Assembly: GCA_013816405.1 (NCBI GenBank)
Contig: JACDEL010000019.1
Location: forward strand, 1 to 41,188
Origin: Chloroflexota bacterium
Lineage (GTDB): Bacteria > Chloroflexota > Limnocylindria > QHBO01
Reading direction: 5' to 3'
Length of the DNA stretch: 41,188 nt
Positions within the stretch are counted from its first letter, which is position 1; every line of letters starts with the position of its first letter. The position numbers were made by a program, and so were the translations under genes. Under the pieces are notes generated by a model, which was given only the letters and a program-made list of their open reading frames with translations, did no database searches and was not told the DNA's origin. Shown one piece after another: positions 35,341-39,117 of the stretch.

Positions 35341-36273
35341 CTAGCCGATCTCGGGCTCGGCCACCGGCCGGCGTGCGGGCTCGCCTCGCAATCGGAGCGT
35401 GGCAAGCACGAGGCCGACCAGGATCACCCCGGCGCCCAGCAGCTGTATGGCGGACGGCGCCTCGCCCAGCAGCAGCATCGCCAGCAGCACCGAGCCGACC
35501 GGCTGGAGGGTCAGGATCACGCTGGTCAGTGCGGCCGGCAGCCGCGGCAGCGAGACGCTGATGATCAGCCAACCGACGACCTGCGAGGTGAGGGCCAGGA
35601 CGAGCAGCCATCCGTGCGATGGCCAGCTCGGGACCAGATCGACCTCCCCCAGCGGCAGCCCGATCACCACCGAGGCAAGGGCGCCGATCAGGGTCGCGTC
35701 GAAGAGCGGTCCGGCCGGGCGGCGCAGGTCGGAATTGCCGCGCCGCAGGACGAGCAGGAAGGCGGCATACACGAACCCCACCACGATCCCCAGGATCACG
35801 CCCAGGCCCGGGTTGGCGCCGTATGCGCCGGTGCCGATGACGCCTGAGATGAGCACGACGCCAGCCAGGACGACCGGCAGCGCCAGCAGCGTGCGCCTGG
35901 GCGGCCGCTCGCCGAGGATCATCCAGGCCAGGAAGGCCACGAGCACGACCTGCATGTTGCCGAGTACCGTCGCCAGGCCGGCGCCGACGAGGGCGATCGT
36001 GTGGTGCCAGATCACGAGGTCCAGCGCCAGGAAGATGCCGGCCAGCATGGCGAGCCGCACCTGCGCGGCGGGGCGCGGGCCATAGGCGCGCCGCTCGAGA
36101 TATGCGATCAGGCCGAGTGCGGGGAGCGCATAGGCGCAGCGAAAGATGGCCGCCGTGGCCGGCTCGACGTCGGCCAGCCGTACCAGGATGCCGGAGAAGG
36201 CGATCGACAGCGCCCCGAGCACCGCCGTCATCACCGGGCGGCGGCCGAGCGCCGCAAAGACAGCCACGATCAT
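35341..36273 (-). CDS. EamA-family (DMT superfamily) transporter
   Basis: A 310-residue permease with ten predicted spans arranged as two EamA repeats. The first starts at ALSIAFSGILVRLADVEPATAAIFRCAYALP and the second near LIGALASVVIGLPLG. The end of each repeat shows the typical pattern VVLVAFLAWMILGERPPRR and LLAMLLLGEAPSAIQLLGAGVILVG. Family members export amino acids, nucleosides or drugs; the substrate cannot be read from sequence. The start at 36273 is chosen from the domain start and a TACGCT box 9 bases upstream; the long in-frame extension is the shadow of the divergent cyclase gene. Confidence 0.87.
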   Translation of the reverse strand: MIVAVFAALGRRPVMTAVLGALSIAFSGILVRLADVEPATAAIFRCAYALPALGLIAYLERRAYGPRPAAQVRLAMLAGIFLALDLVIWHHTIALVGAGLATVLGNMQVVLVAFLAWMILGERPPRRTLLALPVVLAGVVLISGVIGTGAYGANPGLGVILGIVVGFVYAAFLLVLRRGNSDLRRPAGPLFDATLIGALASVVIGLPLGEVDLVPSWPSHGWLLVLALTSQVVGWLIISVSLPRLPAALTSVILTLQPVGSVLLAMLLLGEAPSAIQLLGAGVILVGLVLATLRLRGEPARRPVAEPEIG

Positions 36274-36282
36274 TGCCTGCGC

Positions 36283-36288
36283 AGCGTA
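36283..36288 (-). promoter_or_regulatory. Leaderless promoter -10 of the EamA transporter gene
   Basis: TACGCT on the minus strand, 9 bases before the ATG at 36273. It is the same hexamer as before the zinc finger gene. Confidence 0.4.
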
Positions 36289-36304
36289 CCGGAGCGAGCT
36301 GGTT

Positions 36305-36452
36305 ACCACGTCACGTTGTTCATCAGCGCCGGGGACGCCTGCCACGACCGAAATTGCACGCGGATACCACGGTACGTGGTGCCGGCCTGGAAATTTCGCG
36401 GCAACGAGGGTCGCATCGGCTCCTCGCGCGCCGATGAACCACGTCACGTAGT
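36305..36452. repeat. Three copies of the palindromic element ACCACG-N3-CGTNGT
   Basis: Copies at 36305-36319 (ACCACGTCACGTTGT), 36366-36380 (ACCACGGTACGTGGT, a perfect inverted repeat) and 36438-36452 (ACCACGTCACGTAGT). Centres are 61 and 72 bases apart, near six and seven helical turns. They fill the divergent region between the EamA transporter and the cyclase-like gene and look like a multi-site operator. The regulator is unknown. Confidence 0.6.
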
Positions 36453-36489
36453 AGGCGTCGGGTGGCTTGCCGTCCGACGGCTGGCCGAC

Positions 36490-36495
36490 GACACT
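36490..36495 (+). promoter_or_regulatory. Possible leaderless promoter -10 of the cyclase-like ATPase gene
   Basis: GACACT ends 6 bases before the GTG at 36502. The spacing matches the other leaderless genes, but the first base departs from consensus. Confidence 0.35.
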
Positions 36496-36501
36496 TGCGC
36501 C

Positions 36502-39117
36502 GTGACCGAGATTCCGACCGGGACCGTCACGTTCCTGTTCACCGACATCGAGGGCTCGACCCGCCTTGCCGAGACGCTGGGCGAGGCGTGGCCCCCGCTG
36601 CTGGAACGGCATCGCCAGATCGCCCGAGCGGCGTGGGCGGAGCAGCACGGCGTCGAGATCGGGACCGAGGGCGACTCCTTCTTCGTGGTCTTCACCAGCG
36701 CGCCACAGGCGACGACGGCCGCGGTCGCAGCGCAACGCGGCCTCGCGGCGGAAGTGTGGCCGGAGGGCGGCCAGGTCCGGAGCCGGATGGGCCTGCACAC
36801 CGGGGAGGGCTTGCTGAGCGGCGGCTCGTACGTCGGGCTCGACGTGCATCGCGCGGCGCGGATCGCGAACGCCGGCCACGGCGGCCAGGTCCTGCTGTCG
36901 GCCACGACCCGGTCATTGGTCGAGGGTTCGCTGCCGGAGGGCGTCAAGCTGCGCGAGCTGGGGGAGCATCGGCTCAAGGATCTCTCACGACCCGAGCGCA
37001 TCTGGGACCTCGCGATCGAGGGGATCGACCGCGACTTCCCCGCGCTGCGCACCCTCGACGCGGTTCCCAACAACCTGCCGACGCAGCTGACCTCGTTCCT
37101 AGGGCGCCAGCGCGAGATCGCGGAGGCGCGGCAGCTGCTCATCGACGGTCGGCTGCTGACGCTGACCGGGCCGGGCGGCACCGGGAAGACCCGCCTCTCG
37201 CTCCAGATCGCGGCGGACGCCACCGATCGGTTCCCCGATGGGATCTATTTCGTGCCGCTTGGCACCATCAGCCAGCCGGAGCTCGTGCTGCCGACCATCG
37301 CCCAGGCGCTGGGCCTGGTCGACCCTGGGACGCGGGCGCTCGAGCGGCTGATGGAGCACATCGGTCCCAAGTGCTTCCTCCTCGTGCTTGACAACTTCGA
37401 GCAGGTCAACGATGCCGCAGCGCAGATCGCCGAGCTCCTGGCGAGGGCGCCGAAGATCTCGGTGCTGATCACCAGCCGCAGCCCGCTTCGGGTCTACGGC
37501 GAGCGCGAATATCCGGTCCCCCCGCTAGGCGTCCCCGATCCCATGCACCTCCCCGACCTCGAGCAGTTCTCCACATACGAGTCGGTGGCGCTCTTCGTCG
37601 AGCGCGCGATGGCGGTCCGGCCTGACTTCGCGGTCACCAGCGCCAATGCTCCGGCGGTGGCCGAGATCTGCGTACGGCTCGACGGGCTTCCATTGGCGAT
37701 CGAGTTGGCGGCGGCGAGGGTTCGGGTCCTCAGCCCGCAGGCCATCATGGAACGGCTGGGCGACCGCCTGAAGCTCCTCTCCGGTGGCTCGCGTGACCTC
37801 CCGGAGCGGCAGCAGACACTGCGCGGCGCGATCGCCTGGAGCCACGACCTGCTCGAGGAGGCCGACCAGCGCGTCTTCGCCCGATTCGCGGTCTTCGCCG
37901 GAGGAGCCCCCCTCGACGCGATCGAACGCGTCGTCTTCGACGGAGGCGACACGGCCGATCCTCTGGATGCCATCAGCTCATTGGTTGACAAGAGCCTCGT
38001 GCGCCAGGAGAGCAAGCCGGACGGAGAACCGCGCTTTCGGATGCTGAGCACGATCCGCGAGTTCGCGATGGAGCGGCTGGCCGAACGAGGGGAGGCGGAC
38101 GAGCTGGCCGAGCGCCACGCCGCCTGGGTCCTGGCCCTGGTCGAGGCGGGCGCCGTCGCCATCTTCGGACCGGAGCAGAAGGCGGTGCTGGACCGATACG
38201 AGCACGAGCACGACAACATCCGTGCCGCCCTGGGTCGTGCTACCGCCCTCGACCATGCCGAGATGGCGATGAACATCTTCGCTGGCTCATGGCGCTTCTG
38301 GCAGATGCGCGGATACCTGGCCGAGGCACGCGAGCATGCCGAGCGGGTGCTGGCGCTACCGGACTGCCGCGACTTCCCCGACGTCCGAGCGCTGGCGCTT
38401 GAGGCGGCCGGCGGGATCGCGTACTGGCAGGGCGCACTGCCGGCGGCACGAGCCTGGTACGAGGAGGCGGTCGACCTGGCCCGCGCGTCAGGCGACCCGG
38501 GCAGGATCGCCAATGCCGTCTACAACATCGGCTTCACTCTCACGTTCAGCGGGGAGGACCAGCTCGCTGCCCGCACCCTGGCGCAGGAGGCGGTCGACCT
38601 GTACCGCCAGATCGGCGACGAGGCCGGCGTCGGCCGGTCCCTGTGGGGGCTCGCCAACACCTTCTACTTCTTCAACGATTTCGAGGGCGGCCTGGCAGTT
38701 GCCAACGAGGCGCTCGACATCTTCCGCCGCCTCGACGATCGGTTCATGACCGCATGGTGCCTGTACATGAGGGGCCTCTATAGCCTGAAGTCCGATCCAG
38801 CCGCCATGCGGCGCGACCTGGAGGAGGCGCTCCCCTTGTTTCTCGCCGCCGAGGACAAGTCCGGCTACGCGCTGATCTTCGATGCGTTCGCCGCCCTGTA
38901 CTGGACGGAGGGTGACGTCGATCGCGCGGTGCGACTGGCGGGCTTCTCAGCCGCGACCGAGGCGAGCACCGGCGTCGGCCTTGCCAAGATGAATCGCGAG
39001 GCCGCCGGCTTTTACGTCGAGACCCTCACCGAGGACCCGGCCCTGGCGGCCGCCCACGCCGAGGGTCAGCAGCTGAGCCTCGAGCAGGTCACCGCCCTGG
39101 CGCTGGGCCAGGATTAG
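36502..39117 (+). CDS. Cyclase-homology/STAND ATPase/TPR protein with degenerate cyclase site
   Basis: An 871-residue protein. The cyclase-homology domain (about 8-172) keeps the metal Asp residues 15 (FTDIEGS) and 58 (EGDSF). The base-specifying Lys position is Gly54 and the catalytic Asn position is His116 (GLDVHRAAR), so cyclase activity is doubtful. An NB-ARC-like ATPase follows, with Walker A GPGGTGKT (223-230), Walker B CFLLVLDNFE, ITSRSPLRVYGEREYPVPPL and LPLAIELAAARV. The rest is TPR-like helical repeats. There is no C-terminal LuxR helix-turn-helix. It is probably a nucleotide-gated sensor/scaffold. The GTG start gives the family-typical opening VTEIPTGTVTFLFTDIEG; an upstream in-frame extension is rejected. 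Confidence 0.87.
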   Translation: MTEIPTGTVTFLFTDIEGSTRLAETLGEAWPPLLERHRQIARAAWAEQHGVEIGTEGDSFFVVFTSAPQATTAAVAAQRGLAAEVWPEGGQVRSRMGLHTGEGLLSGGSYVGLDVHRAARIANAGHGGQVLLSATTRSLVEGSLPEGVKLRELGEHRLKDLSRPERIWDLAIEGIDRDFPALRTLDAVPNNLPTQLTSFLGRQREIAEARQLLIDGRLLTLTGPGGTGKTRLSLQIAADATDRFPDGIYFVPLGTISQPELVLPTIAQALGLVDPGTRALERLMEHIGPKCFLLVLDNFEQVNDAAAQIAELLARAPKISVLITSRSPLRVYGEREYPVPPLGVPDPMHLPDLEQFSTYESVALFVERAMAVRPDFAVTSANAPAVAEICVRLDGLPLAIELAAARVRVLSPQAIMERLGDRLKLLSGGSRDLPERQQTLRGAIAWSHDLLEEADQRVFARFAVFAGGAPLDAIERVVFDGGDTADPLDAISSLVDKSLVRQESKPDGEPRFRMLSTIREFAMERLAERGEADELAERHAAWVLALVEAGAVAIFGPEQKAVLDRYEHEHDNIRAALGRATALDHAEMAMNIFAGSWRFWQMRGYLAEAREHAERVLALPDCRDFPDVRALALEAAGGIAYWQGALPAARAWYEEAVDLARASGDPGRIANAVYNIGFTLTFSGEDQLAARTLAQEAVDLYRQIGDEAGVGRSLWGLANTFYFFNDFEGGLAVANEALDIFRRLDDRFMTAWCLYMRGLYSLKSDPAAMRRDLEEALPLFLAAEDKSGYALIFDAFAALYWTEGDVDRAVRLAGFSAATEASTGVGLAKMNREAAGFYVETLTEDPALAAAHAEGQQLSLEQVTALALGQD

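Follow-up and report, generated by a model that had tools for sequence, protein, structure and literature searches.

Helically phased palindrome arrays, a putative dispersed intergenic family in Limnocylindria

Results

The window locus

The window, by which we mean the whole 41,188-nucleotide stretch of DNA analysed here, contains a minus-strand gene for an EamA-family transporter (35341..36273; Pfam PF00892; orthologues in G001–G003) next to a plus-strand gene for a guanylate-cyclase/NB-ARC/TPR protein (36502..39117; Pfam PF00211, PF00931, PF13424). An earlier note had described a transporter and a signalling ATPase transcribed apart, neither encoding a DNA-binding domain; the orientation is as described and Pfam finds no such domain in either gene. 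Throughout, G000 denotes the window's genome, G001, G002 and G003 its congeners and G066 a genome from another family of the same class; these are draft assemblies (G000 95%, G001 89% and G003 76% complete).

Between the two genes, the motif ACCACG-N3-CGTNGT starts at 36305, 36366 and 36438, with a total span of 148 bp, exactly where the earlier note had placed its three copies. Motif searches delimited a left outer palindrome ACCACGTCACGTTGT (36305..36319, plus strand), a central palindrome ACCACGGTACGTGGT (36366..36380, plus strand) and a right outer palindrome ACCACGTCACGTAGT (36438..36452, minus strand). As that note had also claimed, the central copy is a perfect inverted repeat, each outer copy is one base off and the spacing is near-helical: the central site lies 61 bp from the left site and 72 bp from the right, start to start, or about 5.9 and 6.9 turns. 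When one mismatch was allowed, the window yielded six matches counting both strands, all at the three sites, against an expectation of 0.69, and none of 100 shuffled windows reached six. The genome scan that the note had proposed confined the exact pattern to this site in the 2.5 Mb assembly.

The note had overlooked that the outer palindromes are mutually inverted over some 26–28 bp (TACCACGTCACGTTGTTCATCAGCGC ... GCGCCGATGAACCACGTCACGTAGTA), which gives the array inward-facing ends. The longer arm common to both outer copies, TACCACGTNACGTNGTTCATCRGCGC, points inward; flank profiles place the inner extension of the left site, TCATCAGCGC, at 36320..36329 (plus strand; class consensus TCAWCRRCRC) and that of the right site, GCGCCGATGA (reverse complement TCATCGGCGC), at 36428..36437 (minus strand), so that the right palindrome is inverted relative to the left, extension included. 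From TACC to AGTA, the whole element occupies 36304..36453 (150 bp), with both genes outside it. The sequences GCGCAGSNTA and ACTTGC adjoin both start codons (36274–36290 and 36485–36501) and are kept in the congeners; they may hold leaderless −10 elements, and the array lies outside both.

Apparent gain of the window segment

The EamA//cyclase gene pair is retained in G001, G002 and G003 with 75–83 bp between the genes and neither motif nor array, a result that the earlier note had itself named beforehand as refuting its reading. The spacer in G000 measures 228 bp; removal of 36304–36453 (150 bp) leaves 78 bp, the length found in G002, and the remainder aligns. As the difference runs from edge to edge of the array, the segment looks like a gain ending at the outer palindromes. 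An outer TA flanks the element on both sides, the empty site being too diverged to prove a 2-bp target-site duplication. The window copy is probably a late arrival, since it is the single array of its core class (ACYACG, the G001 type) in its genome.

Filled and empty loci were also found elsewhere: the loci of the G000 arrays C16 and C30 are empty in G001, that of G001 C142a is empty in G000 and G002, and that of G001 C224 is empty in G003.

Recurrence across genomes

A core-neutral pattern (ACCA-N7-TGGT twice, with spacing free between 51 and 81 bp) matched 17 times in G000, 22 in G002, 7 in G001 and 11 in G066, and its reversed control gave no matches in these four genomes. This strict pattern missed the window array, and the arrays of the G001 class came from an outer-arm search, which returned seven inward-facing pairs from G001, each enclosing one or two further palindromes. 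Apart from the window copy, intergenic arrays of three or more palindromes with inward-facing outer sites number about a dozen in G000, a similar dozen or so in G002, and seven in G001.

The seven G001 arrays lie between an amidase gene and an unknown gene, an F420-type monooxygenase gene and cofD, a nitrilase gene and a small membrane gene, an XRE-type gene and an MFS gene, a paaD-like gene and a cobalamin adenosyltransferase gene, a nitrilase gene and a monooxygenase gene, and a membrane protein gene and a HesB-like gene, names that reflect our reading of translations, mostly without Pfam. Several of the orthologous places in G000, G002 and G003 are filled by arrays built alike around a different core, ACCAAT-N3-ATTGGT.

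In a 400-genome sample of the phylum Chloroflexota, only stray matches (at most three per genome) were found outside the class, and most genomes of the class were without ACCA-class arrays. The arrays in the class-level relatives G066, G008, G144 and G135 may belong to the same family or to a parallel one. The largest array seen, with eight palindromes at spacings of 50–52 and 71–72, lies on G066 C20 (L134:2428-2839) between genes for a formamidopyrimidine-DNA glycosylase and an alpha-amylase. Those of G002 (contigs C2, C4 and C7; L124-L133) seem clustered, the C4 ones all falling within 224–504 kb of 1047 kb, which could reflect chromosome geography.

After orthologues had been merged, simple heuristic gene calls placed about 10 of 16 loci between tandem genes, 4 between convergent genes and 2 between divergent genes, a distribution that matches random intergenic placement and is unlike that of operators. 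The flanking proteins examined were metabolic, transport or unknown proteins, with no transposase and no recurrent DNA-binding protein or regulator among them. The orthologous arrays C65 and C4f (L121:2273-2344, L131:2336-2407) are preceded, at a distance of about 38 bp, by a tRNA gene; in G001 the same locus has the tRNA and a tilS-like gene and lacks the array.

Helical phasing and site anatomy

All 57 spacings in G000, G001, G002 and G066 measured 51–52, 61–62 or 71–72 bp, within a search range of 51–81 bp, giving a vector strength R of 0.981 at a period of 10.4 bp; among stray single matches elsewhere, 8 of 21 were in phase. For the first eight arrays, the observed phasing strength was matched in none of 20,000 random draws. 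No next-neighbour distance of up to 150 bp in the examined arrays was off phase, and the two longer ones, 112 and 123, are compatible with a missed middle site. We read this phased spacing as pointing to protein dimers bound along a single face of B-DNA.

In the ACCARY class, outer sites follow the profile TACCAAYSNNRTTGGTACAACNGCRC (44 sites), and in the ACYACG class TACCACGTNNCGTGGTTCAWCRRCRCST (16 sites), with a block one turn from the core common to both classes and TA at nearly every outer edge of the arrays. Middle sites show weaker flanking C/G contacts on both sides, and their core is conserved as strongly as the cores at the ends.

Core replacement at orthologous loci

The core varies by species, being ACCARY in G000 and G002, ACYACG in G001 and ACAARY in G003, where the switch is read from one G001 assembly and, for G003, from one clear array. 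That G003 array, at the locus of G000 C16, has three sites of this third class with spacing 51,51. G000 and G002 share nine orthologous array loci, and for five G001 loci the orthologue in G000 or G002 is an ACCARY locus. Despite the other core, spacing is kept at four of these five: G001 C17 and G000 C12 (51,82); G001 C142b, G000 C60 and G002 C2a (61,71–72); G001 C199 and G002 C7b (72,51); and G001 C224 and G000 C28b (72,51, plus one extra site in G001). At the C111 locus it differs (62,72 vs 72,51). Replacement of the core with spacing kept suggests a trans-acting factor with changed specificity and is unlike the behaviour of neutral relics.

Spacers can be aligned between G000 and G002 at several loci and cannot be aligned with G001. 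The arrays C30/C7a, C4c and C23 are not orthologous and yet have similar spacers, which suggests that elements were copied.

At G000 C28 (L073 reverse complement ~495-650), the ACCA-class array has next to it a second one whose sites belong to the ACAA class (ACAAGCACCGGTTGT, ACAACCACCACTTCT, ACAACCACTATTTGT, spaced by about 51 bp), so three core classes coexist in G000. Single ACAA-class palindromes occur 48–82 bp outside ACCA-class arrays (L120:2343, L122:2303, L123:2337).

Discussion

Interpretation of the arrays

We consider it somewhat more likely than not that the window palindromes are one copy of a dispersed, partly mobile intergenic family, here termed phased palindrome arrays, whose sites are bound on one helix face by a putative dimeric protein that coevolves with them. 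A family element is an intergenic, non-coding unit of about 120–190 bp with at least three 15-bp dyad sites at spacings of 5, 6, 7 or 8 helical turns, in which outer sites with a 10-bp extension (WCAWC-N-RCRC) face inward. Comparison of the genomes shows that arrays recur at many unrelated intergenic loci with helical phasing, that loci and spacing are inherited vertically, that at least one copy, the one in the window, looks gained by insertion, and that the core half-site has been replaced between species at the same loci. Variation of the core between species suggests that a DNA-binding protein and its sites evolve together. Such a dimeric protein would occupy the sites on one helix face and might join them in a nucleoprotein body, looped or wrapped; a lineage-specific change in its specificity would drive the core change, and the elements would spread by copying through an enzyme.

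Several observations count against this reading. The flanking proteins examined include neither a recurrent DNA-binding protein nor a transposase, no Y1 transposase is present in any of the four genomes, the C111 locus did not keep its spacing, and a basic chromosomal function would hardly be expected to go with the lack of ACCA-class arrays in most of the class's genomes.

Alternative explanations

The alternative that survives best, which we nevertheless think rather unlikely, is that the arrays are passive relics of miniature inverted-repeat transposable elements (MITEs), that is, of non-autonomous transposons whose end-binding transposase has been lost and which have no host function. It draws on the inward-facing terminal inverted repeats of about 28 bp, the TA at nearly every outer edge, the insertion-like gain of exactly 150 bp, the copies with similar spacers, the lack of a gene-orientation preference and the patchy occurrence in the class. 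As in MITEs, the terminal inverted repeats accompany a lack of coding capacity (no conserved reading frame, and stops in several copies), and the window locus offers filled and empty sites (150 bp vs G002, with short spacers in G001 and G003). However, decay would not hold phase at 57 of 57 spacings, nor would it preserve the distances between sites at orthologous loci whose spacers have diverged and whose cores have changed together; the middle-site core is as conserved as the ends; and no transposase gene was seen next to an array. Passive relics would account for the gain and for the ends, and leave the phase and the replacement of cores unexplained.

The earlier note had proposed an operator, and part of that proposal stands: the sites look protein-binding, lie on one helix face, are not due to chance and have no obvious binder next to them. 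What fails is their assignment to the gene pair. Control of the EamA transporter and the cyclase-ATPase through DNA loops between three repressor or activator sites would suit the divergent promoter region, the helical phase and the position of each outer site within about 30–50 bp of a start codon. Yet the motif is absent from all three congeners that keep the divergent pair, no sigma-70-like promoter was found in the window region, and the same architecture stands beside unrelated genes in all orientations, including the four loci between convergent genes, which offer no promoter to be controlled. We reject an operator of this gene pair on the strength of its absence in the congeners and of the convergent loci, and regard a classical operator as improbable; it accounts for the divergent position at the window only. 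The array, being upstream of both genes, could affect them, which would be a side effect and not the reason for its presence.

A structured RNA or a REP/BIME-type hairpin, acting in a transcript or as single-stranded DNA, is very improbable: every site is palindromic, and shuffled sequences fold less well than the window array (z −5.1 and −5.6), but other arrays have no such advantage over their shuffles (G002 C4f +1.0, C4b −0.8), the range of fold scores (z = −9 to +1) and the lack of complementarity between spacers argue against RNA, helical-turn spacing would be meaningless for it, Rfam matched only neighbouring tRNAs and not the arrays, and the RAYT (Y1) transposase domain PF01797, present in 5 of 14 control genomes, is absent from G000–G003.

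Other origins were also considered. Neither core class has a match in IMG/VR, and the window array has no plasmid or phage match; two matches in Bacteroidales contigs were set aside as chance, as no second array site lies near either. A protein-coding reading of the arms (Y-H-x-x-W-F-N in one frame) was also dismissed, as stops occur, the right arm is inverted and the spacings are not divisible by three.

Significance

Returning to the favoured reading of a protein-bound, partly mobile family, we offer tentatively, as a bolder claim that we hold to be less than likely, that the arrays are chromosome-wide, helically phased multi-site nucleoprotein anchors unlike named families, in which the protein and all its dispersed sites would switch recognition sequence together between sister species, each species having its own site code at the same loci. 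Dispersed palindromic elements as such are common in bacteria; this array family appears not to have been described previously, our literature search having found nothing on phased or regularly spaced palindromes, nor on palindromes of Limnocylindria. A family locked to whole turns at constant loci, with species-wise replacement of its core, would be a natural record of protein–site coevolution, and the arrays provide concrete bait for the binding partner.

Comparison with known systems

Looping repressors of the LacI, GalR and NagC type likewise have several dyad sites on one helix face, suited to loops; unlike theirs, the arrays are not tied to a target gene or promoter, are found at convergent loci and are not retained at the EamA//cyclase pair in the congeners. 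Serine-resolvase res sites comprise three dimer sites, expected to be spaced by whole helical turns, which the arrays resemble, but the arrays are many dispersed copies with symmetric, inward-facing outer sites, and no cognate recombinase was found among the flanking proteins examined.

MITEs such as Correia/NEMIS share the length of 100–200 bp, the terminal inverted repeats, the intergenic position and the insertion-like gain seen for the window copy. The arrays differ in their strong internal palindrome copies at helical spacing and in their vertical retention with conserved spacing, and no parent or related autonomous transposon was found beside any array examined.

Like the arrays, BIMEs are extragenic, genome-scattered arrays of short palindromes in alternating orientation. 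In REP/BIME elements, the palindrome bears a conserved tag, GTAG or CGTC, at its foot (PMC3733652); our flank profiles of 44 and 16 outer sites show TACC outside and WCAWC inside, with no invariant tag tetranucleotide. We found no paper on the phase of BIME palindromes; the arrays described here are phased at 10.4 bp, with spacing fixed to whole turns over 51–82 bp, which may set them apart from BIMEs. Unlike BIMEs, they have neither that tag nor a RAYT gene, they number about 12 per genome as against hundreds of REPs, and their core differs between congeneric species.
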